52,850 nt of DNA from a virus. Below the pieces are notes generated by a model. The model saw only the letters and a program-made list of their open reading frames with translations. It was not told where the DNA came from and searched no databases. Where the stretch lies: positions 1-52,850 of IMG/VR virus record IMGVR_UViG_3300032271_000563. One strand, 5' to 3'. Each line of letters opens with the position of its first letter. Positions within the stretch are counted from its first letter, which is position 1. This document shows positions 24,305-52,850 of the stretch, one piece after another. The position numbers and the translations under genes are program-made.

Positions 24305-24306
24305 CC

Positions 24307-24660: not shown

Positions 24661-24662
24661 CC

Positions 24663-26714: not shown

Positions 26715-26726
26715 TAAGGGTTAGAA

Positions 26727-27188: not shown

Positions 27189-27222
27189 TGAATGAAATTA
27201 CAATGGTGAAAAGGATTTAATC

Positions 27223-27528: not shown

Positions 27529-27538
27529 GGAGTTTTAA

Positions 27539-27964: not shown

Positions 27965-27977
27965 TTAGGAGCCTAAC

Positions 27978-28823: not shown

Positions 28824-28831
28824 GGTTAACA

Positions 28832-30526: not shown

Positions 30527-30527
30527 A

Positions 30528-31400: not shown

Positions 31401-31412
31401 TGGAGTTTAAAC

Positions 31413-31793
31413 ATGGCACATTACGCACACATCACAAACGGAGTAGTTGATAACGTCATTGTTATCGATGCAGAAACACTTCAACTAGGACATTGGGGTG
31501 ATCCATCTGAATGGGTTCAGACAAGCTATCGAACACAAGGCGGTCAGCACCCTGAAGGTAGACCCTTGCACAAGAACTATGCGGGTATTGGTTACACATG
31601 GGACGGTACAGGCTTTGCACCCCCACAACCTTTTGCCTCATGGACAAAGAACGCAGATACATATTTGTGGGAAGCCCCAGTAGCCATGCCCTCAGATGCG
31701 GGTACAGGTACACCACCTAAGATGTACACATGGAATGAACAGACAGTAAACTGGGTTGAAGTGGTTCATACAGAAACAAATACACAGGCATAA
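31413..31793 (+). CDS. Conserved fibre-associated phage protein
   Basis: 126 residues. The series AHYAHITNGVVDNVIVIDAE, WVQTSYRTQGGQHPEG, LHKNYAGIGYTWDGTGFAPP and QPFASWTKNADTYLWEAPVA is a well-known conserved module found next to or within phage fibres, including cyanophage ones (R/HKNYAGIGYTYD, PQPFPSW, WEAP). Exact role unknown. It sits between two glycine-rich tip genes; a fibre-associated or assembly role fits. Confidence 0.75.
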   Translation: MAHYAHITNGVVDNVIVIDAETLQLGHWGDPSEWVQTSYRTQGGQHPEGRPLHKNYAGIGYTWDGTGFAPPQPFASWTKNADTYLWEAPVAMPSDAGTGTPPKMYTWNEQTVNWVEVVHTETNTQA

Positions 31794-31796
31794 ATC

Positions 31797-33455
31797 ATGG
31801 CTCAACTAAGCGGAATGTGGACTCTAAGTCAAGTAAGCCAAGCGGTAAAGGCTGGGCAGTGGATAGGCTTTCCGCAAACAGTTGAGTATCTGATAGTTGC
31901 TGGTGGAGGTGGTGCAGGATGTAGTTATTCTGGTGGAGGAGGTGCTGGAGGTTTAATTGCAGGTCAAACTTCGATTACTCAAGGAATAACTTGCTATGTC
32001 ACAGTAGGTAGTGGTGGGGCTGGCTCGACAAATCAATCCTCTGCGGGTTCAACTGGTGGTGCATCAGTATTGTTGGCTACATCGTCTGGAGCAACTACTG
32101 GTAATTTTGTTGCATCTGGTGGTGGTGGTGGTGGTAGTAATCTTTTAACTTCAGGAATTTCTGGTGGTTCTGGAGGTGGTGCATCGCAATCAACCACAGT
32201 TGGATCAGGAATATCAGGTCAAGGAAATGCAGGTGGTACAGGCACTACATCAGCGGCTTATGGAGCTGGTGGTGGTGGTGGTGCTGGCACAATTGGTCTA
32301 AATGGAGGAACAACCGTTGGCGGTAATGGTGGGGCAGGTATTGCTTCATCTATAAGCGGAGCAGTTGTCACTTACGCTGGCGGTGGTGGCGGTGGAATAA
32401 ATTCTGGTACAGGTGGCACAGGTGGAATTGGTGGGGGCGGTAGTGGAACAAGTTCAAGCGCTACTGGAGGATCAGGATCATCTAGCACTGGTGGCGGTGG
32501 TGGAGGTGCTGGCGGTACTGGATTAGGCGGTGCAGGTGGCTCTGGAATAGTCATCATACGTTATCAAAGTAATCTTCAATGGTTTATAGGCGGTTACGTT
32601 TCTTCTTATGGTGGATACATCATCCATCAATTTACGTCTTCTGGGTCATTGACTCCAACATCACCTATAAGCCTAAATAGCAATGTTGTTATCTTTACAG
32701 TTTCAGGCGTATGGACAGCACCCGCAGGTGCAACTCAAGTTCAATACTTAGTTGTTGGTGGCGGAGGTGGAGGTGCTAGGTATGGAGGAGGAGGTGGAGC
32801 TGGTGGATATAGAACAGCCACAGGGCTTTCTGTCACAGCTGGTACTACTTATTCTGTAACCGTTGGTGCTGGTGGTGCTGGTGGAACTGGAGGAGGTGGT
32901 GGTACTGGAATAGGACAAAATGGAACAAATTCTATATTTAGTTCAATTACTTCGACAGGTGGCGGTGGTGGTGGAAGTGGGCCATCCTATGATGGTTCAT
33001 CAAATGGGGTTGGACAGTCTGGTGGATCAGGTGGCGGTGGTGGATATTCTGCATCGTATTACACAGGAGGTGCGGCATCTCCAAGTGGTCAAGGAAATGC
33101 TGGCGGTGGAGGCGAAAATGGGGCTTCTTATGGGCTTGGTGGCGGTGGAGGAGGTGCTGGAGCCGCAGGACAAAGTTGGTCTTCTGGAAACACTCTTCAA
33201 AATGGTGGCGTTGGTTTAGCTAGTTCAATAACAGGAACATCCACTTACTATGCTGGTGGTGCTGGAGGCGGTGGTGGTATATCCAATGCAACTGGTGGAA
33301 CTGGTGGTTTAGGAGGTGGTGGTAATGGAGCAGGTTATTCCGCTAATAATGGCACAGCAGGAACCGCCAATACTGGTGGGGGTGGTGGAGGTCAAACTAC
33401 ATACGCAAATGGATATAACGGTGGTTCAGGTATCGTAATTATCAGGTGGAGTTAA
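31797..33455 (+). CDS. Fibre-tip protein with two glycine-rich adhesin domains
   Basis: 552 residues. First domain about 28-255 (VEYLIVAGGGGAGCSYSGGG to GGSGIVIIRYQSN), linker GGYIIHQFTSSGSLTP, a second entry unit VIFTVSGVWTAPAGATQVQY, and the second domain about 318-552 ending GSGIVIIRWS. The architecture equals that of the 28832 gene but glycine patterns and loops differ, as expected if the receptor face varies. Last fibre gene before the lysis cassette; 1 bp separates it from the next start. Confidence 0.8.
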   Translation: MAQLSGMWTLSQVSQAVKAGQWIGFPQTVEYLIVAGGGGAGCSYSGGGGAGGLIAGQTSITQGITCYVTVGSGGAGSTNQSSAGSTGGASVLLATSSGATTGNFVASGGGGGGSNLLTSGISGGSGGGASQSTTVGSGISGQGNAGGTGTTSAAYGAGGGGGAGTIGLNGGTTVGGNGGAGIASSISGAVVTYAGGGGGGINSGTGGTGGIGGGGSGTSSSATGGSGSSSTGGGGGGAGGTGLGGAGGSGIVIIRYQSNLQWFIGGYVSSYGGYIIHQFTSSGSLTPTSPISLNSNVVIFTVSGVWTAPAGATQVQYLVVGGGGGGARYGGGGGAGGYRTATGLSVTAGTTYSVTVGAGGAGGTGGGGGTGIGQNGTNSIFSSITSTGGGGGGSGPSYDGSSNGVGQSGGSGGGGGYSASYYTGGAASPSGQGNAGGGGENGASYGLGGGGGGAGAAGQSWSSGNTLQNGGVGLASSITGTSTYYAGGAGGGGGISNATGGTGGLGGGGNGAGYSANNGTAGTANTGGGGGGQTTYANGYNGGSGIVIIRWS

Positions 33456-33456
33456 G

Positions 33457-33651
33457 ATGACTGACACTGAAAAAGACTTAGCTGTCCACGTTGCAGTCTG
33501 TGATGAGCGTTACCGCAACATTGAGGAATCACTGAAAAGCGGAGAAAGGCGCATGACCAAGATTGAGTATTTGATCTATGCTGTAATGGTAATGGTTATG
33601 TTTGGCCCAGGCGTTGCGGCGCAATTCTTTCATAAATTCTTTGGAATCTAA
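33457..33651 (+). CDS. XhlA-like small membrane protein of the lysis cassette
   Basis: 64 residues: a charged N-terminal helix (AVCDERYRNIEESLKSGERR) and one hydrophobic segment at about 38-58 (YLIYAVMVMVMFGPGVAAQF). Coiled coil plus C-terminal membrane span is the layout of haemolysin XhlA-type proteins that assist phage holins. It starts 1 bp after the fibre stop and overlaps the next gene by 1 bp (TAATG). Direct holin function is the alternative. Confidence 0.65.
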   Translation: MTDTEKDLAVHVAVCDERYRNIEESLKSGERRMTKIEYLIYAVMVMVMFGPGVAAQFFHKFFGI

Positions 33652-34151
33652 TGGACCCAATCACTATTTTTGCGGCGTGTAAAGCGGCTCACGCAGGGAT
33701 TCGTGAGTGCATTGATCTTTACCAGGATTTTAAAAAAGACGGCAAAGATGTTGGTGACATTGTTGGTGACATTGGTAAAAATTTAGGTTCGTTCTTTACG
33801 CATCAAGAATCGTTTAAAGAGGCTGAAAAAGAGGCTAAAAATAATCCTTTGCCTAAAAATGTCAGTGTCAATGAAGAGGCAATGAATAGAATTTTGCGTC
33901 AACAACAAATTAGTCGCATGGAAATTGAATTGCGTGAAATGATCATTTACCAAATTGGTATGCCTGGTCTTTGGACTGAATTTGTACAAATGAGGGAAGT
34001 GGTTAAAAAAGAGCGCGAAAAAGTCGAGCGTGAACAAAAAAAGCACGTGAAGACGCCGCTTATAAAAGGCGTCAATTTATTGCCAAATGGGAATTTCGGG
34101 CGGCAATTTGTGTTGCAGTTTTTGCGTGGGTCATGGTCTTTAGCGTACTGA
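33651..34151 (+). CDS. Lysis-cassette protein; likely 5' part of a -1 frameshift gene
   Basis: 166 residues in the plain frame. N-terminal helical domain (ITIFAACKAAHAGIRECIDL), then NEEAMNRILRQQQISRMEIE, LREMIIYQIGMPGLWTEFVQ and a charged coiled coil (KKEREKVEREQKK). After that the plain frame turns into an unlikely tail (GVNLLPNGNFGRQFV...). In the -1 frame the charged helix carries on and a clear membrane span follows, ending exactly before the next gene's ATG. The slippery heptamer A-AAA-AAG (34037-34043) is in the right phase and has a downstream hairpin. I propose a 181-residue membrane-anchored product (131 + 50) alongside or instead of the 166-residue form. Confidence 0.75.
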   Translation: MDPITIFAACKAAHAGIRECIDLYQDFKKDGKDVGDIVGDIGKNLGSFFTHQESFKEAEKEAKNNPLPKNVSVNEEAMNRILRQQQISRMEIELREMIIYQIGMPGLWTEFVQMREVVKKEREKVEREQKKHVKTPLIKGVNLLPNGNFGRQFVLQFLRGSWSLAY

Positions 34152-34195
34152 TGTACGGCATCCACCTGGATTATCAAAAATCGAAAGGACAGTAA
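34037..34195 (+). other. Putative programmed -1 frameshift site and trans-frame extension
   Basis: The heptamer A-AAA-AAG (34037-34043) fits codons CAA-AAA-AAG, the same heptamer as in E. coli dnaX. Eight nt downstream, GACGCC (34052-34057) pairs perfectly with GGCGTC (34068-34073) across a 10-nt loop. After slippage the reading continues from 34043: AREDAAYKRRQFIAKWEFRA, then the membrane span AICVAVFAWVMVFSVLMYGI and a polar end, stopping at TAA 34193-34195, with the next gene's ATG at 34196. A natural or sequencing indel in the A7 run would give the same picture. Confidence 0.65.
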
Positions 34196-34690
34196 ATGGA
34201 TTGGCTGAAATCAATTGCTCCTACAATAGCCACAGCATTAGGAGGCCCACTAGCTGGCCTGGCTGTTAATGCCGTTTCATCTGCTTTGGGTATAGACCCT
34301 AGTAAAGTAGAAGAAACCATACAATCGGGCAAACTGTCTGCCGATCAAATAGCATCTATTCAACAAGCAGAACTTGGCCTTAAAGCTCGCGCACAAGAAC
34401 TTGGTCTTGACTTTGCTAAATTGGCTGTAGACGATAGAAAATCAGCCAGGGAACTTCAAGCAACAACCCGCAGTTTTATTCCCCCAGCTTTGGCCATTCT
34501 TGTTACGGTGGGTTTCTTCGGAATATTGGTGGGCATGATGATGGAAACATTTAGAACAAGTGAGGCTTTGATGCTGATGCTTGGGAGTTTAGGCACGGCT
34601 TGGACGGGGATCATTGCATTTTATTTCGGGTCTTCTGCTGGCTCACAGGCAAAAGATGATTTATTACACAAAAGCACACCTACAAAATGA
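34196..34690 (+). CDS. Holin, 3TM/GTA-type family
   Basis: 164 residues, GAAAGGA upstream. N-terminal hydrophobic stretch (about 8-31), a helical section with the DDRKSARELQATT motif (79-91) typical of this holin family, then two strong spans at about 95-116 (IPPALAILVTVGFFGILVGM) and 124-145 (LMLMLGSLGTAWTGIIAFYF), and a short charged tail. The layout matches the three-TM holin family related to gene-transfer-agent holins. It would open the inner membrane to release endolysin, whose gene overlaps it by 4 bp. Confidence 0.8.
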   Translation: MDWLKSIAPTIATALGGPLAGLAVNAVSSALGIDPSKVEETIQSGKLSADQIASIQQAELGLKARAQELGLDFAKLAVDDRKSARELQATTRSFIPPALAILVTVGFFGILVGMMMETFRTSEALMLMLGSLGTAWTGIIAFYFGSSAGSQAKDDLLHKSTPTK

Positions 34691-35118
34691 CACAACTTAG
34701 CCCACATTTCTCTCTTGAAGAGTTAACAATCACTGAACATAGGGAGTTTGACAATGAACCTAATGAACTTGAAAGAGCAAATCTTGTCCGCCTTGCAAAC
34801 TTTTTGGAGCAAGTTAAAGAGCTATTGGGCGGCAAGCCTGTCATGGTTAACAGCGCGTTTCGGTCAGCCCAAGTAAATCAGGCAGTGGGGTCAGCTCCCA
34901 CGTCTCAACATAGGGTTGGCTGTGCGGCTGACTTGCGTGTGCCAGGCATGACACCAAATGAGGTGGTCCAAGCTATTATTTCAAGTGATTTGCCTTATGA
35001 CCAGTGCATAAGAGAATTTGACAGGTGGACCCATCTTTCTATAACAAACCATGAGGGCGAAAAGCCTAGACGGCAGGCTCTTATCATTGATAAAATGGGC
35101 ACAAGAGCTTACGCATAG
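34687..35118 (+). CDS. Endolysin, M15 family zinc peptidase
   Basis: 143 residues. SAFRSAQVNQAVGSAPTSQH then RVGCAADLRV holds the M15A zinc ligands H75 and D82; WTHLS gives H116, and REFDRW supplies the acidic catalytic position (E110/D112 region). All are at the spacing of D-Ala-D-Ala/L-Ala-D-Glu peptidases such as the Peptidase_M15_3 group used as phage endolysins. No signal peptide, so it depends on the holin. It overlaps the holin stop by 4 bp. Cleaves peptidoglycan peptides at the end of infection. Confidence 0.88.
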   Translation: MTQLSPHFSLEELTITEHREFDNEPNELERANLVRLANFLEQVKELLGGKPVMVNSAFRSAQVNQAVGSAPTSQHRVGCAADLRVPGMTPNEVVQAIISSDLPYDQCIREFDRWTHLSITNHEGEKPRRQALIIDKMGTRAYA

Positions 35119-35127
35119 GGAATTATT

Positions 35128-35772
35128 ATGGCAACGTCAACATCGGTAATGACATATGACTCCTTAGTCAACAATGTCCAGGTTTACCTGGAGCGTACCG
35201 ACGCCACCACAATAGAGAATATTCCCCTTTTCATTATGTTGGCGGAACAGGTGATTGCCAGCCAAATCAAGTTTTTGGGCAATTTAACGGTCCAAGAATC
35301 AACAATGGTGGCAGGTAGCAATATTATTCCCAAGCCAGCCCGTTGGCATAAAACAGTTTCCATGAACCTTACGGTTGCATCGACAAACACTGACAATCCA
35401 GTATTGTTAAGAAAGTATGAGTATTTGAAAGAGTATTGGCCTATTCAATCAAATACTGCACAACCGCTTTATTACGCTGATTATGACTACGACAACTGGT
35501 TGGTGGCGCCGACACCAGATCAAAACTATTCATTTGAAGTTTTGTATTACCAGCGCGTTCAACCACTTGATTCTTACAACCAAACCAATTGGTTTACACA
35601 ATATGCCCCCCAGGCTTTATTGTTTGGCTCCCTACTCCAGGCAATGCCGTTTTTAAAGAATGACGAGCGTGGACCTATTTTCCAACAACAATACGATCTA
35701 ATCATGCAAACTCTGACAACAGAGGACAGGTTGCGGGTTGGTGATCGTCAAGCCGTAGTGGTGGATGCATGA
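35128..35772 (+). CDS. Head-tail adaptor protein (SU10 adaptor-like)
   Basis: 214 residues. Begins MTYDSLVNNVQVYLERTDAT and ENIPLFIMLAEQVIASQIKF, followed by ESTMVAGSNIIPKPARWHKT and a beta middle, then the C-terminal helical half (YAPQALLFGSLLQAMPFLKN, QQQYDLIMQTLTTEDRLR). This is the pattern of the short-tail adaptor family known from SU10-like podoviruses. It would sit under the portal and carry the nozzle. A second, different adaptor (23231) is also present. Confidence 0.75.
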   Translation: MATSTSVMTYDSLVNNVQVYLERTDATTIENIPLFIMLAEQVIASQIKFLGNLTVQESTMVAGSNIIPKPARWHKTVSMNLTVASTNTDNPVLLRKYEYLKEYWPIQSNTAQPLYYADYDYDNWLVAPTPDQNYSFEVLYYQRVQPLDSYNQTNWFTQYAPQALLFGSLLQAMPFLKNDERGPIFQQQYDLIMQTLTTEDRLRVGDRQAVVVDA

Positions 35773-37004
35773 CAACTTATACCTCACCCTTTACGGGCAA
35801 CACAATTCAACCTACTGACGTAAGCTATGAGGCTTATCTCAATCAGACGGCAAATTTAACGCTGTTTTGGCCAATCAATGGCACAACGGGTAACCCTACG
35901 GCCAGGATTATGGACGTAAGCTTTACAACGGCTGGATTGTCCTTGTATATGCCTGACGCCACTCAAGTGTCAGTTGGCCAAGATGCGATGATTCGCAATA
36001 CAGGGTCAGTTGCTTTTACAGTCAAAGGTTATTCTGGAAACACAATTGTTTCTGTTCCAGCTAGTTCTGCCCAGTATATTTATTTGACCAGCAATGCTAC
36101 CCAAGGCGGTACCTGGGGCGTTTTAGCTTTTGGTACAGGTACATCTAGCGGGACGGCCTCAACGCTTGCTGGGTATGGTTTAGAGGCACTTTCAGCCACT
36201 TTAAACCAAGCATATACAGTTAATTCATTGATTACTGGATACACGTTTTTAGCGGCTGACCAGGCATCAATTTATGTATGGACTGGTGGAACGACAACTG
36301 TTACTTTGCCACTAGCAAATACTTTGGGTTCAAATTGGTTCTTTTTGTTTAAAAACAATGGGACGGGTACCGTTGATATAGCGTGTAGTGGATCGGACCT
36401 AATTGACAGTGGTACTTCAAAAACATTCCAGCCTGGTAATTCTGCATTTATTGTGTGTACAGGAACTGGGTATGTAACTGTTGGTTACGGTACAAGCTCT
36501 ACGTTTGTTTATTCTGTTTTGACATTGACATTAACTGGTGGGTCATACACATTAACTGCAAGTCAAGCCTCAAATACCATTCAAGAATATTCAGGAACTC
36601 TTTTATCCAATCAAACAATTATCTTCCCCCCTGTTGCTAACTTGTATGTAATCAGCAATCAAACATCGGGCAGTTTTACATTAACAGCAACAACAAATAT
36701 TGCTGGAAAAGCAACCGCTACCATTCCCTCTGGAGGGCAAGCTACATTAATTTGTGATGGACAAAACTTTTTTAATGCCAACACAACGCAGGCTGGAGCA
36801 ACAGCATTGAGTATTGCCAGTGGTTCACAATCAAATCCAACATTGAACTTCAGCGCTGAAACATCAACGGGTATATATCGTCCTGGTACAGGCAGATTTG
36901 GTATCACTGTTCTTGGTTCTTTGGTTGTTGACGTAAGCGCAACTGGTCAGACGGTAACTGGTTCAGGCACATTTACTACAGGTATTTCTGGTGGAACATT
37001 CTAA
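35769..37004 (+). CDS. Tail-associated beta-rich structural protein
   Basis: 411 residues overlapping the adaptor gene by 4 bp. N-terminal domain: SPFTGNTIQPTDVSYEAYLN, LFWPINGTTGNPTARIMDVS, GLSLYMPDATQVSVGQDAMI, which is a conserved start of tail proteins placed between adaptor and nozzle. Several beta repeats follow (YVWTGGTTTVTLPLANTLGS, NWFFLFKNNGTGTVDIACSG), and a fibre-like end (STGIYRPGTGRFGITVLGSL ... ISGGTF). Probably a short-tail fibre or collar protein fixed to the adaptor. Confidence 0.65.
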   Translation: MTTYTSPFTGNTIQPTDVSYEAYLNQTANLTLFWPINGTTGNPTARIMDVSFTTAGLSLYMPDATQVSVGQDAMIRNTGSVAFTVKGYSGNTIVSVPASSAQYIYLTSNATQGGTWGVLAFGTGTSSGTASTLAGYGLEALSATLNQAYTVNSLITGYTFLAADQASIYVWTGGTTTVTLPLANTLGSNWFFLFKNNGTGTVDIACSGSDLIDSGTSKTFQPGNSAFIVCTGTGYVTVGYGTSSTFVYSVLTLTLTGGSYTLTASQASNTIQEYSGTLLSNQTIIFPPVANLYVISNQTSGSFTLTATTNIAGKATATIPSGGQATLICDGQNFFNANTTQAGATALSIASGSQSNPTLNFSAETSTGIYRPGTGRFGITVLGSLVVDVSATGQTVTGSGTFTTGISGGTF

Positions 37005-39265
37005 TGACCAAACAAGTATTTCAATTAGATACCAAGGCTGGAATACAAAGGGACGGAACAGTCTTTGACAATCCTTTTTATACCGATGGTCTATGGGTAA
37101 GGTTTCAACGTGGCAGGCCCCGTAAGATATATGGTTACACTGAAATAACACCTAGCCTGGCTGGACCATCCAGGGGTATTTATGTAAGCCCCCAAAATGG
37201 TTTTACCAACGTATATAGTGGATATTCTGACGGTCTACAAGTAATTCCCATAAACAGCAGTGGAACTGGTGGTGGTATAAGTGATTTCACCTTATCCAAT
37301 TTCACTGCATCATCTCTTAATGTGTGGCAGTTTGATAATTTCTTTGACTCTTCGGGTTCAGGAAACAATTTGCTTTTGGCCCATCCAGGTCAAAATTTAG
37401 CGGCAATTGATAGCACAACAAATACGCCTGTTTTGGCTGGTGCATTAACGGGTACAACAGCATCAAAAGTTGGTGTTTTTACCCAAGCTGTTAATACAAC
37501 AAACGGCTCAGTCACCGCAACATTAAATTATCCTTTTACCAATCAATTTATTGTTGGCGCTGGCCAAACTATCACTGGCACTGGTATTCCATCTGGAACC
37601 ACGGTTACTGGGGTTGTGGCAAATACTTTGACCCTATCAGCCGCCGCTACAGCCACTACAGGAACAACTTTATCCACTGTTGCAGTAACTGGTACAGCGG
37701 GACAATGCTCATGTACAGCAACTACGCTAACTGTTGGCCAGTCAGTTTTTGTGACTGGTACAAATTCTGGTACAGAAACAGGCATAACAGCGGGTACCTA
37801 CTACATCATAGCTACCAACGGAACTACTACATTTACGCTATCTGGTAGCTATAGCGGTACGGCAATAACCACCACAGCAGGCACAACAACTGGATTGGCT
37901 TTTGTTGTAAACACTCCAATTACAGCAACATTTGACAACAACATTTCAGTTTCTGGTGGTGTCATTGTTCTTTTTCCATACGTTTTTGTTTATGGAAATA
38001 ATGGATTGATTCAAAATTCTGGTGCTGGTAATGTCAACGATTGGGTATCAGCTACAGCCAACGCTACAAATGTAGCTACAGGAAAGATTGTCCAGGGTTA
38101 TCCAATCCGTGGTGGTACTAATTCACCATCAGGATTATTTTGGAGCTTAGACAGCGTTATACGTGTGTCTTTCACTCCAACAACAACTACGGTTGGAAAT
38201 ACTTCTAGTACGTTTTACTGGCGGTATGACACGATTACAAGTCAGTCATCAATACTTTCATCACAATCTGTCATTGAATATGATGGTATTTTTTACTGGT
38301 GCGGTGTAGACAGATTTTTGTTATACAACGGTGTTGTCAAAGAAATTCCAAATGGATTAAATCAAAATTACTTTTTTGACAATTTGAATTATGCACAACG
38401 TCAAAAAGTATATGCAACAAAAGTTACTCGGTTTGGTGAAATTTGGTGGTTCTATCCAAACGGTTCAAGCACAGAGTGCAATAACGCAATTATTTATAAT
38501 GTTCGTGAAGGTACCTGGTATGACGCTGGTTTTGCCGCGGGTGCTAGGCGCAGTGCAGGTTATTTTTCCCAAGTTTTCCACTATCCAATCAATGCCGATT
38601 GGCAGGTCAATGCTAGTGGTGGCGTTAATTTGGTGACCATAGGAGCATCAGGAAGTTCTTATACAAATGGAACATATTCGTACTATTCTCTTACTGGCGG
38701 TACTGGCACTGGTGCTACAGCAACTATTACTGTTGCTGGTGGAGTGGTCACTGCTGTAGCCATTAAAAACCGTGGAATAAACTACACTGTTGGCGATACA
38801 TTAAGTGCAGTATTGCCTGCTGGTTCTGGGTTTAGACTGGTTGTTAATTCAACCATGACATTTGTTTCTTTGTATCAACATGAAATTGGTGTTGATGCAA
38901 TCACAGGCGGTCAAGTACTTGCAATACCAAGTTACTTTGAAACCAATAATTTGGGTTTTGTCAGTGGTGGTCCAGCACAAGAAACACCTGTATCAACTAA
39001 CAAGTGGTTAAGGGTTGAGCGTGTTGAGCCTGATTTTGTTATGTCAGGCCAAATGCAAATGTACATTACTGGACCGTCATATGCTCAAGGTGAAGATAAG
39101 TTGTCTGGCCCATATCTATTTGATCCAAACACTACAAAAATTGATCTTAAAGAACAACGACGTCAAATGAGAATTAAATTTGTTTCCAACGTACAAGGTG
39201 GAAATTATTTTTTAGGTAAGTTGTTATTGGACGCAGACTTCGGTGATGTAAGGGGGTATTCGTGA
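37004..39265 (+). CDS. Tail nozzle/stabilisation protein with inserted beta modules
   Basis: 753 residues. GIQRDGTVFDNPFYTDGLWV then RFQRGRPRKIYGYTEI opens a propeller-like tail protein of the P22 gp10/short-tail nozzle type; later blocks are SQSVIEYDGIFYWCGVDRFL, QRQKVYATKVTRFGEIWWFY and EGTWYDAGFAAGARRSAGYF, and finally IDLKEQRRQMRIKFVSNVQG. Between about residues 149 and 309 lies an insertion of Thr/Gly-rich beta units (GAGQTITGTGIPSGTTVTGV, GTNSGTETGITAGTYYIIAT) related to those in the 19279 product. The core closes the tail tube after packaging; the insertion probably decorates its surface. Confidence 0.7.
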   Translation: MTKQVFQLDTKAGIQRDGTVFDNPFYTDGLWVRFQRGRPRKIYGYTEITPSLAGPSRGIYVSPQNGFTNVYSGYSDGLQVIPINSSGTGGGISDFTLSNFTASSLNVWQFDNFFDSSGSGNNLLLAHPGQNLAAIDSTTNTPVLAGALTGTTASKVGVFTQAVNTTNGSVTATLNYPFTNQFIVGAGQTITGTGIPSGTTVTGVVANTLTLSAAATATTGTTLSTVAVTGTAGQCSCTATTLTVGQSVFVTGTNSGTETGITAGTYYIIATNGTTTFTLSGSYSGTAITTTAGTTTGLAFVVNTPITATFDNNISVSGGVIVLFPYVFVYGNNGLIQNSGAGNVNDWVSATANATNVATGKIVQGYPIRGGTNSPSGLFWSLDSVIRVSFTPTTTTVGNTSSTFYWRYDTITSQSSILSSQSVIEYDGIFYWCGVDRFLLYNGVVKEIPNGLNQNYFFDNLNYAQRQKVYATKVTRFGEIWWFYPNGSSTECNNAIIYNVREGTWYDAGFAAGARRSAGYFSQVFHYPINADWQVNASGGVNLVTIGASGSSYTNGTYSYYSLTGGTGTGATATITVAGGVVTAVAIKNRGINYTVGDTLSAVLPAGSGFRLVVNSTMTFVSLYQHEIGVDAITGGQVLAIPSYFETNNLGFVSGGPAQETPVSTNKWLRVERVEPDFVMSGQMQMYITGPSYAQGEDKLSGPYLFDPNTTKIDLKEQRRQMRIKFVSNVQGGNYFLGKLLLDADFGDVRGYS

Positions 39266-39543
39266 GTTACAATACCGCCTCTAATAATCAAACAAATCTT
39301 ACTTCATTAATTTATGATCCACGACATCATACCTTTGATTCATGGGCTAGTCTCATGTGCGAGGCTTTTGCCGCTAATCAATTGGAAATACCTGATCCAC
39401 AAACAAATTGGCAAGGCTGGGCATCAGGATTAAAAGCAATCGCTTTATTTGATAATTCGGGTACTCCTGATCCATATGCGTATGAGGACTGGAGTGATTG
39501 GGCAACAGCTCTTGTTAATAACTACCAGCCGAGCCCACAATGA
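39262..39543 (+). CDS. Small tail-region hypothetical protein
   Basis: 93 residues linked to both neighbours by 4-bp overlaps. The series HTFDSWASLMCEAFAANQLE, QTNWQGWASGLKAIALFD, YEDWSDWATALVNN repeats a W-x2-W-A pattern, making a Trp-rich helical protein. I associate this pattern with a conserved unnamed gene after nozzle genes in uncultured short-tailed phages. Translational coupling to tail and ejection genes suggests a virion assembly role. Confidence 0.65.
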   Translation: MSYNTASNNQTNLTSLIYDPRHHTFDSWASLMCEAFAANQLEIPDPQTNWQGWASGLKAIALFDNSGTPDPYAYEDWSDWATALVNNYQPSPQ

Positions 39544-42500
39544 GTGATCCAGCATCCCTTGTTAGCGAATACTTTGCCGCCAATCCTAAGGCATCGCCTG
39601 AACAAGTGGCACAGGCTGTTCAATCCATAGGTGGTTTGGACGCTAATCCTGGACTTGCAAGTGCATTGGCTGGCCACTATGGCAACAGTGTTGGGGACAT
39701 CAGTTCAGCATACAGCCAATTAATCAATACGGCTCCAGCAACACCTACAGCAACTGTTGCGGCTCCTCTATCAACTCCTGTATCTGCACCCGTATATTCA
39801 TCAGCCGCTGACGTTTTAAGTGGTTTACAAAGTGGTGCCTTAAACCAAACAACGGCAATAGGTGCCTTACAACAAGCAAATTCTTCATTTGGGCAAAACG
39901 CTCCTCCTGCTCCAGTTGCACCAATTGCTCCTGCACAACCTGCAACAACAATTGCTCAGGCTCCAGCACCAGCGGCACCAATTGCACCATCTGTTTTGAA
40001 TGCAGATCAAATATGGCATGATTCAAGCGATGAATTTAAAAATACTTATGACACTATCCAAACAGGCAAAGCAACAATAAAAAATGCTCTGGTTGATGAT
40101 GGTGAAGGCAACTTTGTAAACCAATTTGGATTAAGAGATGCAAGTGGAAATTTAATTACAGATTATGTAAAAAATCTTGGTAATAACATATATCAAATAC
40201 CGTCAAGTTCCACTGGCGGAACCATGAATACATTTGTTTATGTAGATCCAAAAACTGGCTTGGTCAACCCAGTTGCAGATCCATCTAAACAAGTTATTTA
40301 TGGTGGAGGAAACTCAGGATCATGGGCAAAAGGTGTTGTAAGAGATTTAGGTCCAATACCTGCTATTTTTGCCACAGTTACGGGTAACCCTGAATTAATA
40401 CCTTATATCAATGCGGCCTCAACGGCAATCAACGGCGGCAACATTGGGGATATTGGTAAATCATTTGTACTTGGTAATGTAGCCTCGGCCCTTGGATCTG
40501 CGGCAGGTGATATTGTTGGTGGAGCCACTGGAAGTACTATTCTTAGTGGAGGTGCTCAAAACCTGGTTAGTTCAGAAATTTCAAGCGGTGGAAAAGCTGA
40601 TCCAGTAAAAGCTTTTGCTTACGGTGGTATTGGTTCTGCTGTGCCTATTATTGCAGGTGAAATTGAAGGTTATTCAAATTTAAGTTCTTCACAACAACAA
40701 ATTGTTAATAACGTAATTGCTGGGGCATTGTCTGGACAAAAGCCAACACAAATAGCTATTAACACGGCTACAGCAGTTGCCAAAGATCAAGTCAATACGT
40801 TTAATGAAATAAACAACAATGACGCTTTGCTTGATACAAAAACAACTCCAGGAGCCTCAAATACTCAAGTTGCCAATCAATTAATTTTTGATGCCTCTAA
40901 AGCTCCTGATGTCACTACAGCACAAAAATTGGCAGATGATGCTGGATACCATCAATTCAAATTTGACGGTAAAACATACACAATAAATCCTGCAAGCCCA
41001 ACTGAAGTTGATGTTGCAGACGCAACCAGGACTGGTAATTTATTCCAAGCAATTGGATATACGGACCCAACTAAGGCCATGCAAGCCGCTTTGGCGGCAG
41101 ACCCAAATGCAACGGGTTTTGTGATGGGTGGAAAAGAGTATTCAATACCAAAGGCGCCAACAACAGGGATTGGAGCAACCACTCCATCTACAGCAGACGC
41201 TCTAACAAATTTAATTAATCAGTCTTACGCAACAATTCCAGGCGGTTCAATAACAGGTGAAGGCCCTCAGAAACCTTTAACGCAACTTAATGCTCCTATA
41301 CCTACAACACCTGTAGTAAAACCTGTATCTGAATGGGATAACAATTCCAAGGCTACTGTGCCTGGAATGAATTTAACGCCTATTTTAAGTGCTAGAGATC
41401 AAGCAATTAAAGATTTGGGTGGAATAGATGCAATCACTGATAAAAACACAGGACAAATATTTGTAACTTTACCGCCTGAAACACCCGTAGCAAAACCTGC
41501 ATCTGAATGGGACAATAGTTCTAAAGCAACTGTGCCTGGGATGAATTTAACACCTATTGTGCCTAAAGAAATTCCTTTAAGCGCCAGGGATCAAATGATC
41601 AAGGACCTGGGTGGTCCAGATGCAATTATTGATCCATTCACAGGAAAAATATCTGTTACTTTGCCGCATGAAGACAAAATGGGTGCATCAGATATCACAA
41701 ATGTAAAAGGAACTGTAAGCAATATTTTAAATACTACTGGTAACAATTTAACTGGTGTAGGACTTGCTGGCGCTCAATTGGTTGGAAGTGCTTTGGGTGC
41801 TGATACATCCTATCTGAATAATTTGCAAAATGCAATTCAACAAAATCAACAGACATCAATTTCCAAATTGAATAACAGTGAGCAAAATGTTGCTCTAGGA
41901 TTATCAAATGCATTGACTACTTTTGCTCTAGGAACCCTGGGTGGACCCGCGGCGGCAATTATGGGCAACACTGCAATTGTTGGAAATAATACATTTCAAG
42001 AAGGTGTAAAAGCTGGACTTACTCCAATACAAAATGGCACTAGAACAGCCATGATGATGGGAGCAGAAACAATTGGTGAAATGCTGGGATTGCCTGGTTT
42101 AAATGTAGTTCTTAAAGGTTTACCCATAGGCGCATCACCATCACAAATGATTAATGCTGTTGGTAAATTTATTGGTGCCAATGTAAACGAACAATTTGCT
42201 GAAGCTGTTACCACCACCATGCAAATGGGAATTGATAAAATTGAAGGCATTGGATTAAATCCAAAAGCAACAGTTGATGATTGGATTGGGGCTTTAAAAG
42301 ACACGGCGGTTCAAACATTGTTTGCTGTTGGTGGCGGGCACAGTGGGGCAACTGCAATTAATTCTGTTGGCAAAGGCGGGTCAAATTATGTTGATACAAC
42401 TGACCAAACCAATACACCCACCACAGCACCATCAATAACCAATGTAGGTACCAATGCCACGATTACAGGCCCTGTTGCCGCCAATGAGCCCATCAATACC

Positions 42501-44204
42501 TCTGGTGGTAATGTTACCCCCATAGGTAATGCACCAAGCAGTTTGGCGTCTGCTGTATCAGCAATTGGCTCTTCAAATGGAACTTACAACCAGGCGCCTA
42601 CTTCAGGTGCAACCGCATTAGCCCCAAGCTTGGTATCAAACCCTGAGTTGTATACCCAAGGACAAGTTACTGTTGATGTCAACCCTGAAACCAATGTCAA
42701 AACTGAAGTAAAAGTTGACCCTGTAACCCAACAACAAACCAAAGTGGTAACTGACCCAAACAATGGTTTAACAACGCAAACATTTTTAAATCCATCAACT
42801 AATGTTTCTAGGGTCAACACGTACAACCAAAATACTGGTATTCAATCGTATGAAGTTACAAATCCTGCAACTAATTCAATTACCAAAACAATTACTGATC
42901 CAAATTCAAAAGTAGAGATCAAAACACAATCAAATACTGAAACAGGCAAGGTTGTTACCACGGTCACCAATTTAGCAACTGGGAAGATTACTTCAAGTGA
43001 ATCAGTAAACCCTGACATTGTGGTTAAACCTGTTGTAGCTCCTGCGGTAGCTCCCGCTGTTGCGCCTGCGGTGGCCCCTGTCGTTGCTCCAGTCGTTAAC
43101 CCAGTGGTCAATCCCGTTGTTAATCCTGTAGTCAATCCCGTGGTCAATCCAGTGGTCAATCCAGTGGTTAACCCTGTCGTTAATCCTGTAGTAAATCCAG
43201 TGGTTAATCCTGTGGTTAACCCAGTAGTAAATCCCGTTGTTAACCCAGTAGTAAATCCCGTTGTTAACCCAGTAGTGAATCCAGTAGTAAATCCAGTAGT
43301 TAATCCACCTGTTATTACAAATCCACCTGTTAATCCTCCTGGACCACCTGTAACACCGCCAGTGGTGCCTCCTGGGCCTCCACCTGGGCCTCCACCTGGA
43401 CCTCCACCTGGACCTCCTCCAAAACCACCAGAACCCCCAGTGGTAAAACCTCCTGTAGTTGTTAACCCTGTAGTTGTTCCCCCTGTGGTAACTCCACCAA
43501 CAACTACAACCACAACAGTAATTGACCCTAAAGTAACGGTAAAACCTCCAACCACTACCACAACTGGCGGCGGTGAGGTACCATCCTATACGCCCACGGG
43601 TGGTCCAGGGCACAAACCAAACCCAATTGTTGAGTCGTTGTTAAAAACGTACATGACAAAACAAAAGTTTATGAGCCCATTGGAAAAAATGGCGTTCCTA
43701 GCACATATTCAAGAGAAAACAGGCCAAGATATGACTGATCCATATATAACCTCCTTATTGTCAGGTAACTCATCAACCTCACAAACGACGTCTCCATCGT
43801 CAAATTACTATAAATATGGCGTTGAAACTCCAACAGTCAGTGACCAATTGGCTACCAAAGATACTGCTCAACCCCTTAAAACAGGGGGTGCGCCTGACCC
43901 TTATTACGCTGGTGGTGGATTGCCTACAATCAAAGGACGCAAGGATTTTAGAAATGGCGCCCATGTTGCTGGACCTGGCCACGGCACCTCAGACGATATT
44001 CCTGCCATGTTGGCGGATGGTGAGTTTGTGTTCCCTGCTGATGTGGTTTCTGCCCTGGGTAATGGGTCCACAAAAGCTGGTACGGAAAAGCTGTATCAAA
44101 TGATGCATGAAATTAGAGCCAGAGCAAGATCAGCAAAACCAGGTGATTTGGCGCCAGATGCACTAAAATCTCCTTTAGATTACCTGAAAGGTAGGAAAAA
44201 ATAA
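39540..44204 (+). CDS. Very large repeat-containing ejection/internal virion protein
   Basis: 1554 residues. N-terminal helical module (about 1-60, EYFAANPKASPEQVAQAVQS), Ala/Pro linker (about 60-155), Gly/Ala-rich segments with possible membrane-active helices (ALSNALTTFALGTLGGPAAA, about 780-800), a tandem duplication (41306-41673), a coil with NPETNVKTEVKVDPVTQQQT, then 18 PVVN tetrapeptides (about 1184-1255), a GPPP stretch and a Thr run. The conserved C-terminus has AGGGLPTIKGRKDFRNGAHV, SDDIPAMLADGEFVFPADVV, and LYQMMHEIRARARSAKPGDL. Such C-termini occur in large injected virion proteins of related phages. Probably ejected into the host with DNA; the Pro-rich rod could span the envelope. 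Function inferred. Confidence 0.75.
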   Translation: MSDPASLVSEYFAANPKASPEQVAQAVQSIGGLDANPGLASALAGHYGNSVGDISSAYSQLINTAPATPTATVAAPLSTPVSAPVYSSAADVLSGLQSGALNQTTAIGALQQANSSFGQNAPPAPVAPIAPAQPATTIAQAPAPAAPIAPSVLNADQIWHDSSDEFKNTYDTIQTGKATIKNALVDDGEGNFVNQFGLRDASGNLITDYVKNLGNNIYQIPSSSTGGTMNTFVYVDPKTGLVNPVADPSKQVIYGGGNSGSWAKGVVRDLGPIPAIFATVTGNPELIPYINAASTAINGGNIGDIGKSFVLGNVASALGSAAGDIVGGATGSTILSGGAQNLVSSEISSGGKADPVKAFAYGGIGSAVPIIAGEIEGYSNLSSSQQQIVNNVIAGALSGQKPTQIAINTATAVAKDQVNTFNEINNNDALLDTKTTPGASNTQVANQLIFDASKAPDVTTAQKLADDAGYHQFKFDGKTYTINPASPTEVDVADATRTGNLFQAIGYTDPTKAMQAALAADPNATGFVMGGKEYSIPKAPTTGIGATTPSTADALTNLINQSYATIPGGSITGEGPQKPLTQLNAPIPTTPVVKPVSEWDNNSKATVPGMNLTPILSARDQAIKDLGGIDAITDKNTGQIFVTLPPETPVAKPASEWDNSSKATVPGMNLTPIVPKEIPLSARDQMIKDLGGPDAIIDPFTGKISVTLPHEDKMGASDITNVKGTVSNILNTTGNNLTGVGLAGAQLVGSALGADTSYLNNLQNAIQQNQQTSISKLNNSEQNVALGLSNALTTFALGTLGGPAAAIMGNTAIVGNNTFQEGVKAGLTPIQNGTRTAMMMGAETIGEMLGLPGLNVVLKGLPIGASPSQMINAVGKFIGANVNEQFAEAVTTTMQMGIDKIEGIGLNPKATVDDWIGALKDTAVQTLFAVGGGHSGATAINSVGKGGSNYVDTTDQTNTPTTAPSITNVGTNATITGPVAANEPINTSGGNVTPIGNAPSSLASAVSAIGSSNGTYNQAPTSGATALAPSLVSNPELYTQGQVTVDVNPETNVKTEVKVDPVTQQQTKVVTDPNNGLTTQTFLNPSTNVSRVNTYNQNTGIQSYEVTNPATNSITKTITDPNSKVEIKTQSNTETGKVVTTVTNLATGKITSSESVNPDIVVKPVVAPAVAPAVAPAVAPVVAPVVNPVVNPVVNPVVNPVVNPVVNPVVNPVVNPVVNPVVNPVVNPVVNPVVNPVVNPVVNPVVNPVVNPVVNPPVITNPPVNPPGPPVTPPVVPPGPPPGPPPGPPPGPPPKPPEPPVVKPPVVVNPVVVPPVVTPPTTTTTTVIDPKVTVKPPTTTTTGGGEVPSYTPTGGPGHKPNPIVESLLKTYMTKQKFMSPLEKMAFLAHIQEKTGQDMTDPYITSLLSGNSSTSQTTSPSSNYYKYGVETPTVSDQLATKDTAQPLKTGGAPDPYYAGGGLPTIKGRKDFRNGAHVAGPGHGTSDDIPAMLADGEFVFPADVVSALGNGSTKAGTEKLYQMMHEIRARARSAKPGDLAPDALKSPLDYLKGRKK
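41306..41673 (+). repeat. Tandem duplication inside the 39540 gene
   Basis: Two adjacent copies of about 58 codons: one starts at 41306, the other at 41481. Both read TPVVKPVSEWDNNSKATVPG / TPVAKPASEWDNSSKATVPG, then MNLTPI, SARDQAIKDLGG / SARDQMIKDLGG and an INxTGKI-V-TLP end. Codon use has drifted, so the duplication is old and kept in frame. Confidence 0.85.
43089..43304 (+). repeat. Eighteen-unit PVVN tetrapeptide repeat (12-bp unit)
   Basis: Eighteen in-frame 12-bp units encode Pro-Val-Val-Asn. Units differ at third positions (cca/ccc/cct, gta/gtg/gtt/gtc, aat/aac) but not in amino acid. It is preceded by related PxVA units and followed by a GPPP run. A rod or linker in the ejection protein. 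Confidence 0.95.
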
Positions 44205-50383: not shown

Positions 50384-51016
50384 TCAAAAAGGTATATCGT
50401 CATCCATTTCTTCAATGGACGGGGTGCTCTTTACGCCGCTTGAATTACGCATAGCCCATTCTGGTGAACTGGTAATTTTCTCTTTTAAACCCTGGCCAAA
50501 TGTCTCAAACAAAGCCATGTCGGGCTCCGTAATCATAAACAGGTGGTTGGGGTTAAATGGCTTGGGTAAGCCTGCCTGCTTGATCAATGAGGGCACTGGA
50601 GAGATTGTGGCCACGTTTGCGTAGGTTTTGCCGCCTGACTCTCTGTGAATGACGTTAAGCATACAGTAGGCGCCCAAGATTGTTTTCAAATCAAAGCGCC
50701 TGGCCTCGGCATCCGTCCAGGGTTTATTTCTCCAGGATTGCAAGTCTTTACGCAAGTTGGCATTCTCAGACCAGCTTAACGTGTAGTTCTTCCAAATTGC
50801 CATGGGCTTACCGTCATCAGTAAGTAGGGGTGCTCCGCTGTCATCCTCACCAAACAACTCCCAGTAAACCGTGATCTTGCGCTGGACCTTGACTTCACCC
50901 ATGTACTCGGAACGCTGACTACCCAAATCAACTATGCGGTAGCAACGGCCCAAATGGGAACCTGTTGGTACATTTTTAAAATTACGTTCTTGATTGCTTT
51001 CTACGTAAAAACTCAT
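50384..51016 (-). CDS. Single-stranded DNA-binding-like protein with SSB C-terminal tip
   Basis: 210 residues. The chain ends EEMDDDIPF, and DDDIPF is the exact C-terminal tip through which bacterial SSB binds its partner proteins. The body is an OB-fold-compatible beta protein: VPTGSHLGRCYRIVDLGSQR, VKVQRKITVYWELFGED, TLSWSENANLRKDLQSWRNK, LGAYCMLNVIHRESGGKTYA. This is a divergent phage family rather than classical SSB. It likely coats single-stranded DNA in replication and recombination, and may recruit the nuclease. GGAG ribosome site; overlaps the small gene upstream by 4 bp. Confidence 0.75.
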   Translation of the reverse strand: MSFYVESNQERNFKNVPTGSHLGRCYRIVDLGSQRSEYMGEVKVQRKITVYWELFGEDDSGAPLLTDDGKPMAIWKNYTLSWSENANLRKDLQSWRNKPWTDAEARRFDLKTILGAYCMLNVIHRESGGKTYANVATISPVPSLIKQAGLPKPFNPNHLFMITEPDMALFETFGQGLKEKITSSPEWAMRNSSGVKSTPSIEEMDDDIPF

Positions 51017-51139: not shown

Positions 51140-51511
51140 TTATAAAAGCTTTTCTGTTTCTTCCTGTAACGGAACTCTTCTAAATACTTCCAATCCCATA
51201 GACGTCATGTGGGTGGTAACTATACCAGCACCATACAACTCACAGCCTACAGTGGATGCAATGCTTTGTATGTCTTTGGGTTCAAATTCACCGTAAGGAA
51301 TTAATTTAATTTGTTTTTCCTGCAAGGTTAAAAGGTGTGGTTTTACTATGCTGGTTAACAATCCACGGGGATATTTAAATTCTTTTTTTGGCGGCAGAAT
51401 TTGCAAATCACCATGTGTATCACCATCTGGATCAATCACACAATATTTGCAATTTAAAGAGTTAAGCATTCTTAAAGCTTTAATAAATTCTTTTTTGGCA
51501 ATTTCCTGCAT
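51140..51511 (-). CDS. Hypothetical early phage protein
   Basis: 123 residues. Two adjacent ATGs (51514, 51511); the second has GGAGG five bases upstream, so I chose it. LNCKYCVIDPDGDTHGDLQI then LPPKKEFKYPRG is a compact N-terminal part seen in small phage regulators, followed by IKLIPYGEFEPKDIQSIAST and GAGIVTTHMTSMGLEVFRRV, which could be a winged-helix-like DNA-contact region. It lies near the start of the leftward operon, so a regulatory role is possible but unproven. Confidence 0.6.
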   Translation of the reverse strand: MQEIAKKEFIKALRMLNSLNCKYCVIDPDGDTHGDLQILPPKKEFKYPRGLLTSIVKPHLLTLQEKQIKLIPYGEFEPKDIQSIASTVGCELYGAGIVTTHMTSMGLEVFRRVPLQEETEKLL

Positions 51512-51729
51512 CATGGCCTCCAAACAAAAAAGTCTAAGAGCATGACAACCACAGCAACAAAGTAAACAGCAACTAAAACTTTTTCAATTAAAGGTTGTTT
51601 TTGTTTGTTAGATTGACCAAGCAAAAAATCTTGAATGGTTTCTTCATCTTTGCTCATGGGCTTGGCTGGGGGTATGTACCCACCGCCGATTTTTATACCA
51701 GTACTGGTAACGTGATATTCTTTTTCCAA
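51511..51729 (-). CDS. Small single-span membrane protein, first of leftward operon
   Basis: 72 residues from a TTG start with GGAG 7 nt upstream. Polar N-terminus (STGIKIGGGYIPPAKPMSKD), then one clear membrane span at about 50-68 (VLVAVYFVAVVVMLLDFFV). First gene behind the leftward promoter. Small early membrane proteins often act in superinfection exclusion or immunity; here that is only a possibility. Confidence 0.6.
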   Translation of the reverse strand: MEKEYHVTSTGIKIGGGYIPPAKPMSKDEETIQDFLLGQSNKQKQPLIEKVLVAVYFVAVVVMLLDFFVWRP

Positions 51730-51765
51730 TTGTGTTCTCCATTAAACGGCATATACCGCACAAGA

Positions 51766-51794
51766 ATTTTATGTTTGTTTTAACTTTTAGTAAA
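51766..51794 (-). promoter_or_regulatory. Leftward early promoter with operator-like dyad
   Basis: On the minus strand, -35 TTTACT (51794-51789), a 17-bp spacer and -10 TAAAAT (51771-51766). The operator-like sequence TTAAC-tttta-GTAAA (51780-51794), one mismatch from the consensus, covers the -35 and the adjacent spacer. It would drive the operon 51729 to 48827. Confidence 0.6.
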
Positions 51795-51818
51795 TATATT
51801 GTTGACTGGATTGTAGGG

Positions 51819-51847
51819 TTGTTCTTAATCATAAGTTAATGTACAAT
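51819..51847 (+). promoter_or_regulatory. Rightward promoter with operator-like dyad in spacer
   Basis: -35 TTGTTC (51819-51824), a 17-bp spacer, -10 TACAAT (51842-51847). The dyad TTAAT-cataa-GTTAA (51825-51839) fills the spacer. It points toward the structured leader and the Cro-like gene, suggesting autoregulation. Confidence 0.55.
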
Positions 51848-52156
51848 CGATTGGTTGGTGAAAGCAGATGTTAAGCTGAGAAGATGAAAACTCATTCTTG
51901 ATGGAGCGAGTAGCCAACCCCAAGAAGTGTAGAGATTGGTGGGTATGAAGTCGGTCAACGGCGCTCTGAACTGCAACGTCTGGCCAGCCAGTTGTAGTTA
52001 ACGCTTTCATCCCGATGCTCCACGGGGGTCATGTCCTCAAACAGTCTCTACTCTTGTTGGCGAAACGGGTTAGTGCCGTGGCAAGAAGATATTAAAGAGT
52101 GTTGTTATGCCGCCCCTGCTTTATGGGAGCGCCAACATTTAACAAGGAATGATTGA
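51848..52156 (+). ncRNA. Structured non-coding leader or ncRNA upstream of the Cro-like gene
   Basis: About 300 nt with no convincing gene on the plus strand. Helices visible on the + strand: GGTTGG/CCAACC (51853-51858 with 51914-51919); a 10-bp helix, one G-U, of GTAGAGATTG (51929-51938) with CAGTCTCTAC (52042-52051); inside it ACTGCAAC...GTTGTAGT with one G-U (about 51970-51998); CCCG...CGGG (52011-52026); CTTGTT-GGC with GCC-GGCAAG (52053-52085); and a GTTG...CAAC-closed hairpin (52101-52136). No intrinsic terminator precedes 52157. It may be a long regulatory 5' leader or a separate RNA. I cannot match it to a known RNA family. Confidence 0.45.
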
Positions 52157-52363
52157 ATGAAATTGAAAGAATATTTTGCTGAAGAGCCCCTGGGGGCCAT
52201 CAACGAAATGGCGAATCACCTAGGTATTACTCCATCATGGATGTCACTGTTGATCCATGGCCACAGAGTACCCAGCCCCAAGCTTGCTGTTGCAATTGAG
52301 TTTGCTACACAAGGTTTGGTTACCAGGAAAGTGTTGCGTCCAGATATTTTTTCTGTAGAATAA
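52157..52363 (+). CDS. YdaS/Cro-like DNA-binding regulator
   Basis: 68 residues with AAGGAA upstream. A compact helix-turn-helix chain: LGAINEMANHLGITPSWMSL (helices 2-3, about 12-31), then LIHGHRVPSPKLAVAIEFAT and VLRPDIFSVE. The final L/VxRPDIF motif is characteristic of YdaS/Cro-like phage regulators. It likely binds the TTAAC-N5-GTTAA dyads at the divergent promoters beside it and at the early genes. It is the only clear transcription regulator in the window. No CI-type repressor with a peptidase domain is present here. Confidence 0.8.
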   Translation: MKLKEYFAEEPLGAINEMANHLGITPSWMSLLIHGHRVPSPKLAVAIEFATQGLVTRKVLRPDIFSVE

Positions 52364-52372
52364 ATTTAGAAC

Positions 52373-52453
52373 ATGGCTAGGGTAGCTCCCGAAAAGACGA
52401 TTCGTTACCGTCCTGCCAATGTTTTTTCCAGTAACGATGACCGAAAAACGTAA
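52373..52453 (+). CDS. Possible 26-codon ORF
   Basis: Frame MARVAPEKTIRYRPANVFSS followed by NDDRKT, placed between the Cro-like and DUF1376 genes. No clear ribosome site. The bases also hold an inverted repeat, CGTTAC (52403-52408) and GTAACG (52431-52436). Could be a real micro-protein or simply a regulatory spacer. Confidence 0.25.
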   Translation: MARVAPEKTIRYRPANVFSSNDDRKT

Positions 52454-52460
52454 GGTTGTT

Positions 52461-52850
52461 ATGCATTATTACCAGTTCAATATTGGTGACTATCAAAGTC
52501 ACACTGCTCATTTATCCCTTGAAGAAGATTTAGCTTATAGGCGCCTGCTCGATTGGTGTTATTTGCATGAGCGGCCGTTGCCGAAAGACCACAAACAGAT
52601 TGCCAGATTGATTCGTATGCCAACGCATAGCGAATGCATTGCCATTGTTTTGCTAGAGTTTTTTCAAGAGACTGATGAGGGTTACTTTTCCACCAGGGTA
52701 GAACAAGAGGTACAGAGGGTAAACGATAAGGCAGAAAAAGCCCGTTGTTCTGCAAGGAAAAGATGGGATGCGAACGCATTGCAAACGCAATCCAAAAGCA
52801 ATGCTACCCAAGACACAATACCCAAGACACATAACACAATACCCATTAGA
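52461..52850 (+). CDS. DUF1376 (YdaU-like) replication-associated protein, 3' end outside window
   Basis: 130 codons visible, open to the right edge. YYQFNIGDYQSHTAHLSLEE then DLAYRRLLDWCYLHERPLPK, VLLEFFQETDEGYFSTRVEQ and a basic helix (EKARCSARKRW) match the DUF1376 N-terminal domain of YdaU-like proteins, which serve as phage replication initiators or replisome organisers. The C-terminal linker (NALQTQSKSNATQDT) becomes low-complexity before the edge. AAGG ribosome site 5 nt before the ATG. It follows the Cro-like gene, the usual order of an early replication operon. Confidence 0.85.
   Translation, partial: MHYYQFNIGDYQSHTAHLSLEEDLAYRRLLDWCYLHERPLPKDHKQIARLIRMPTHSECIAIVLLEFFQETDEGYFSTRVEQEVQRVNDKAEKARCSARKRWDANALQTQSKSNATQDTIPKTHNTIPIR

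Follow-up and report, generated by a model that had tools for sequence, protein, structure and literature searches.

Three conserved and exchangeable RNA modules precede the Cro-like gene of a phage genome

Introduction

In the phage sequence studied here, a leftward and a rightward operon are separated by a gap at 51848-52156, and the question that this locus raises is what the gap encodes. The window, i.e. the whole stretch of DNA that was analysed, comprises positions 1-52,850 of IMG/VR record IMGVR_UViG_3300032271_000563, with one strand read 5' to 3'. An earlier note had proposed that the gap lacks a credible plus-strand gene and holds a single structured RNA of about 300 nt, likely functional as an antitermination leader in the manner of the HK022 put RNA, as a regulatory RNA acting on the leftward operon or as part of a replication origin. 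Here we describe three conserved RNA modules, A, B and C, which occupy 51853-52137 on the plus strand and each fold independently, and we weigh what they may do.

Results

Divergent operons flank the gap

The first gene of the rightward operon, directly 3' of module C, encodes a Cro/YdaS-like regulator (52157-52363, plus strand; Pfam PF15943 YdaS_toxin, E 6.4e-11; PHROG 35, transcriptional repressor, E 1.5e-11). The second is a DUF1376/primosomal-protein-like gene that runs past the window end (52461-52850, plus strand; Pfam PF07120, E 3.6e-24; PHROG primosomal proteins). In the divergent operon, the leftward gene at 50384-51016 (minus strand) matches PHROG 862, a family of unknown function (E 3.2e-20); its C-terminus, ...MDDDIPF, is an SSB-type acidic tip, and its function is putative. 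Upstream of the modules a -10-like hexamer, TACAAT (51842-51847, plus strand), ends 5 nt upstream of the point where the closing helix of A begins, and a weak -35 candidate, TTGTTC (51819-51824, plus strand), lies at a 17-nt spacer from it; the latter agrees at only 3/6 positions and the promoter scanner made no call. ARAGORN called no tRNA or tmRNA in the window. Elsewhere in the window, gene 39540-44204 (1554 aa) contains a long series of Val-Asn-Pro repeats (42842-43561), probably a structural or linker region, and the structural region at 27978-33455 encodes several tandem glycine-rich paralogous proteins (VEYLVVAGGGGGG...).

Three modules rather than one RNA

The plus strand of the gap (317 nt) folds at -100.7 kcal/mol (z -2.1), with 1/100 shuffles equally good, while the minus strand of the same stretch does not fold above shuffles (z -0.7); strong structure is, as proposed, present at this place. 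Folded singly, the three sub-elements score z -2.66, -2.52 and -2.61. Folding energy by itself is weak evidence, and it is the comparison with relatives that decides. In relatives found via the Cro-like protein, the same site holds other combinations of modules: L003 carries A-B'-C, L004 carries C followed by B, L005 has C alone and L017 has A alone. The ~300 nt therefore consist of three separable units, and the single RNA of the earlier note gives way to independent modules that relatives carry in other combinations.

Module A (51853-51919, plus strand) is closed by the helix GGUUGGU/GCCAACC (51853-51859/51913-51919). Within it, a conserved core places GAAAGCAGAUG (51860-51870) opposite AGCGAGUAG (51905-51913) around a variable inner hairpin, and the GAA/AGUA pair, to judge by its resemblance, may form a bulged-G (loop E) motif. 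Relatives repeat this plan, with GAAAGCRGAUG and GCGAGUAG facing each other across a variable hairpin inside the closing helix.

Module B (51920-52053, plus strand) has a long closing helix in which CCAAgAAG.GUAGAGAUUG is paired with CAGUCUCUAC.CUUgUUGG. The 10-bp long-range helix that had been noticed in the sequence is this closing helix (51929-51938/52042-52051), lengthened by CCAA/UUGG. The inner helices include AACUGCAAC/GUUGUAGUU, which is the bulged hairpin described earlier inside the 10-bp helix, and GUCGG (51950-51954)/CCGAU (52012-52016). The CCCG/CGGG hairpin (52011-52014/52023-52026) proposed at the same time is not conserved in relatives; covariation instead pairs 51950-51954 with 52012-52016.

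Module C (52055-52137, plus strand) is closed by UGUUGGCG/CGCCAACA (52055-52062/52130-52137) and encloses the hairpin ACGGGUUAGUGCCGU (52065-52079), a variable hairpin and CCC-UGCUUUAU-GGG (52114-52127). In its counterparts in relatives, the closing helix encloses ACGG-N-UUAGC-N-CCGU, then a variable hairpin and lastly CNC-UGCUUUAU-GNG; the two conserved loops may touch through an AGY/GCU contact. The two further stem-loops that the note had placed before the Cro-like gene exist, but as parts of module C inside UGUUGGCG/CGCCAACA and not as separate elements. The same reading had overlooked the conserved core of module A and an RNA past the Cro-like gene, with which the region holds four RNA elements. 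This fourth element is int-alpA (RF02996; 52370-52437, plus strand), found by Rfam cmscan at 40.5 bits (E 5.5e-5) against a gathering score of 35.8 bits, over model positions 1-71 of 71. It lies 3' of the Cro-like stop codon and 5' of the DUF1376 gene, and occurs also in L002, L003, L004 and L152. Its stem is followed by UUUUUU in the window; a terminator function was considered and dropped, as the L005 copy has no U-run.

Relatives support the helices

Pattern scans of viral contigs, in which helices were not imposed, gave at least 120 matches each for the core patterns of A and C and 32 matched stretches for B, against a chance expectation, on a rough estimate of collection size, of the order of 10 for A and below one each for B and C. 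For B, a first pattern built from two sequences matched nothing, and the one built from seven sequences succeeded. Covariance models trained without this phage recovered the modules A (model R1; 51846-51927, 35.7 bits, E 7.6e-8) and C (model R2; 52048-52146, 56.9 bits, E 1.1e-12), and neither model had a further match elsewhere in the window.

In the alignment of A (42 relatives), 92.3% of pair cells form a pair compared with 73.6% after shuffling, and 87 cells are double-changed compared with 28, with 0/500 shuffles as high. For C the corresponding values are 95.8% versus 70.3% and 89 versus 29 (again 0/500), in an alignment of sequences with one closing-helix register, which favours the count for the closing helix and not that for the UGCUUUAU arm. 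This 3-bp arm is complementary in 106/106 C modules, in six different sequences. For B, RNAalifold on 21 sequences predicted 37 pairs, 20 of them with compensatory changes. Pairs in B include 96 G-U versus 2 A-C (26:10 in A and 12:5 in C), and this excess assigns the structure of B to the plus strand. Compensatory changes exceed both shuffled and slid controls, as is expected of a structured RNA, with the absolute figures to be read loosely given that the related sequences are not independent and the model E-values are rough. The earlier suggestion of a functional structured RNA is strongly supported by this conservation and by the compensatory changes, with the coding alternative disfavoured; a lack of conserved helices in relatives, which was to speak against it, is not what relatives show. 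We conclude that the gap encodes a real, largely undescribed kind of phage RNA.

Placement of the modules across phages

A -10 hexamer is found 5-7 nt upstream of the closing helix in 21/101 C modules, compared with ~0.06 per offset elsewhere, and a -35 element is also present in 18/23 cases with such a hexamer; for A, a -10 hexamer lies 3-8 nt upstream in 10/110. Elsewhere a module follows closely on a co-directional gene, with 46/79 A modules lying 3-10 nt past the stop codon of a same-strand gene. As read from these positions, the modules appear to start at +1 or shortly after a stop codon. Many finish 1-40 nt upstream of the following start codon, and their orientation to the next gene is mostly sense (sense:antisense 76:27 for A and 83:16 for C), so that the proposed regulatory RNA acting on the leftward operon finds no support. 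Among 20 long contigs, picked via pattern matches mostly of A or C, C occurs in 13, A in 9 and both in 3, nearly always in single copy.

The gene directly upstream of A encodes an SSB-type acidic tip in 25/76 cases versus 1.2% of background frames, and C modules adjoin such genes in 2/39. Profile searches identified SSB-type proteins and SNF2 helicases upstream of modules, and primases, MazG and others downstream; DUF927 is also among the neighbours. Some arrays of modules adjoin tRNAs or follow a terminase gene (L093, L044), away from an early promoter. No GC-skew turn was seen at the module site. As the closing helices are rarely followed by a U-run (5/111 A, 6/106 C), the modules are not simple terminators; this explanation was rejected, the stretch 51500-52850 also containing no intrinsic terminator (GC stem plus U-run). 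No conspicuous terminator was seen downstream in L003 and L004. Weak A candidates lacking a closing helix (e.g. L105) were treated as chance. A permuted tmRNA and three tRNAs were observed close to an A module in L138 (6546-6787).

In a subset of phages the modules form long chains

Two linkers, roughly CAGUCCCCAGCCGUGUUGG and ACACGCAUGGGGAUUG, alternate along these chains and are complementary to each other; the slots alternate accordingly, one being closed by GUUGG/CCAAC and its neighbour by CAUGGGGAUUG/CAGUCCCCAG. B occupies the second slot type; A and C usually occupy the first. Between the near-constant linkers, the Y-slot contents amount to 77 distinct sequences in at least 47 clusters, and 17 array-content clusters precede more than one kind of neighbour. 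Exchangeable contents in near-constant frames suggest that the contents are swapped via homologous recombination. Hairpins of the tRNA T-arm type occur in 6/97 array contents versus 0.04 expected. An A module of L204 (13515-13634) has a tRNA-like T-arm (GUGGGUUCGAAUCCCAC) in its inner hairpin, and an array slot of L156 holds a tRNA-like body. A tRNA origin of the modules, prompted by the T-arm hairpins and embedded tRNA pieces, was rejected, A, B and C themselves not being tRNA-like.

Other RNAs were observed near the arrays. A separate structured RNA lies ~100-250 nt past the C modules of L222, L224, L184 and L259, and occurs also in L197 and L093. It has a promoter-like sequence to itself, and its long closing stem runs into a stretch of T, apparently a terminator (e.g. 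GCCGUUAG...CUAACGGC-UUUUUUUU in L224); it resembles a free-standing phage sRNA. Beyond the arrays in L222, L156 and L259, CCGUACUCCRYACGWUAGCAAG ... GGYGYGGAAKAGAA.ACACGG recurs, perhaps as a further RNA module.

Hosts and isolates

Named matches of A are mainly from Burkholderiales (Limnohabitans, Xylophilus, a Burkholderiaceae strain and Comamonas). A prophage of Comamonas odontotermitis is one example of a module-bearing prophage. The canonical A and C queries had one real isolate match, Bordetella phage vB_BaM-IFTN6, in which A lies upstream of a tRNA-like sequence. In this phage (L405, 2994-3240) A appears to belong to a longer RNA (GCAACGAGCGGGCAGCGC...) that ends at the tRNA-like sequence, and similar flanks (GCAACGAGCG) were noticed in L061 and L045. 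In bacterial genomes of one Burkholderiales family, A is present in 4/401 and C in 0/401; since both are rare in host genomes, the families are phage-borne.

Discussion

The reading that we tentatively favour is that A-B-C is a cis-acting leader on the early transcript, with put-like modification of the polymerase as its likeliest, and inferred, mode of action. Transcription would start at, or within ~2 nt of, the closing helix of module A, and the early transcript would open with A-B-C. The modules would fold on emergence from RNA polymerase and act in cis on their own transcript. Most likely they would make contact with the polymerase during elongation so that it resists pausing or termination, as the HK022 put RNA does; with this modification, transcription could continue through the early replication operon. 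A and C would be interchangeable units of leader function and B an extra domain of the chain, and the closing helices shared between modules would keep the domains side by side and supply homology for swapping between phages. The early replication and recombination neighbours (SSB types, SNF2 helicase, primases) and the usual occurrence of one site per genome speak for a leader, and of the neighbouring genes that were tested none was recognisable as encoding an N-type antitermination protein. By position the put analogy of the earlier note fits, in that the modules begin at what looks like +1, precede cro and occur at one site per genome, but a match to put itself was not found.

Several observations sit less well with a put-like leader. 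The at least 47 kinds of array content would not be expected if the sole task were to bind one conserved polymerase surface; some arrays are located near tRNAs or after terminase, no terminator stood out in L003/L004, and the -35 element in the window is weak. It is conceivable, though we would not rely on it, that phages of mainly Burkholderiales carry combinatorial RNA arrays whose linker-recombined cassettes each recognise a different host or phage partner. We know of no described counterpart to such linker-joined combinatorial RNA arrays.

A less probable alternative is a 5'-end or intercistronic mRNA element that protects or processes the message, or sets translation of the next gene through an RNA-binding protein of the host or the phage. 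Such an element would account for a helix at the apparent +1 or just past a stop codon, often ending shortly before a start codon. For this task, however, a plain hairpin would be enough, whereas the loops and internal loops of the modules are nearly invariant, and the downstream genes are too varied for gene-specific control.

We regard as rather unlikely a trans-acting array, in which the modules are expressed together as one multi-domain RNA or are released from it, the domains serve as decoys for host proteins (RNA-targeting defences, for example) and phages swap these domains in an arms race. The varied and mixed contents held in near-constant frames, the excess of T-arm hairpins, the arrays adjoining tRNAs and the phage-borne distribution are what one would predict from decoys. 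A fast arms race is difficult to reconcile with cores of A and C that are almost invariant over hundreds of contigs, and single modules are usually placed tightly upstream of a gene and without a terminator of their own.

Equally doubtful is a role in DNA replication, in which the structured transcript or strand would serve as a primer, as an origin or for the loading of proteins, possibly with the phage SSB as a partner. The position of A directly behind SSB-tip genes, the replication neighbours (SNF2 helicase, primases, DUF927 and, in the window, DUF1376), the mostly single site per genome and, by analogy, the placement of STAXI RNAs near SSB genes all lend it some weight. Of the origin proposed earlier, it is the replication genes nearby that stand; the GC-skew turn is absent, the L093 and L044 arrays follow a terminase gene, C is seldom beside SSB-tip genes and the many G-U pairs in B point to RNA.

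A small protein, encoded by a 61-aa minus-strand frame (51825-52010) or a 41-aa plus-strand frame (52031-52156), is highly improbable and was rejected: both frames are open and have short tblastn matches to relatives, but the matches span RNA-conserved parts only, L106, L151, L005 and L235 have in-frame stops, single-base indels occur among the B alignments and the modules are reordered between phages. The earlier view that there is no credible plus-strand gene here holds.

Three covariation-supported families, of which every one occurs in dozens to hundreds of phage contigs, are missing from Rfam. Their chained arrangement, their mostly single site per genome and their close association with early promoters and with SSB or helicase genes make two questions testable: by what means phages that have no known antitermination protein run their early operons, and whether RNA domains are exchanged in the manner of gene cassettes. 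The families can also serve as landmarks for annotating early regions in aquatic phages.

How do the modules compare with known RNAs? Within 51780-52143 no Rfam 15 family matched at E up to 10, and this holds for the int-alpA and Betaproteobacteria-1 models as well as for C4 antisense RNA, STAXI, GOLLD, ROOL and the other families searched by covariance model against A, B and C. Plain DNA comparison with phage records yielded short matches only, close to the Cro-like and DUF1376 genes, and we found no published description of the three families in the open literature. Int-alpA resembles the modules in fitting the space from one gene's stop codon to the start of the following gene, and it is present in relatives that carry A or C, but it differs from A, B and C in sequence and fold. 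The Betaproteobacteria-1 RNA (RF02932) has a comparable place beside a divergent SSB-type operon in L025-L028 and is present in L184, which carries a C module; it differs in sequence and is absent from the window at gathering level. In L027, a hairpin-rich element (3250-3375, minus strand) bounded by GAAGACGC...GUCUUC was observed directly before this RNA.

GOLLD and ROOL are large RNAs linked to phages, and GOLLD is lake-derived. They share with A-B-C a multi-domain build, but here the domain composition is combinatorial and not fixed, and neither had an Rfam match at any locus scanned. STAXI RNAs are repeated structured units near genes for SSB and other DNA-handling proteins (Weinberg 2010, PMC2864571); they are tandem, similar pseudoknots with UUCG loops, whereas A, B and C have different, interchangeable folds, and STAXI likewise gave no Rfam match.

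The closest functional comparison is with put. What defines put RNA is that it suppresses termination through the zinc-binding domain of the RNA polymerase beta' subunit. In HK022, put is ~70 nt long, is located immediately 3' of PL and acts without the help of a phage protein (PMC9378689). Over HK022 24000-40751, R1 and R2 had no match at E up to 10, and the same searches found the families in other loci. Like put, the modules are structured RNAs in units of ~70 nt that precede cro-type or replication genes, and they would lie at the head of early transcripts or close to it. They differ in architecture: put is a two-stem V shape, whereas A, B and C have other folds and are chained and exchangeable, and we consider them new RNA families and a modular variant of phage leader RNAs.
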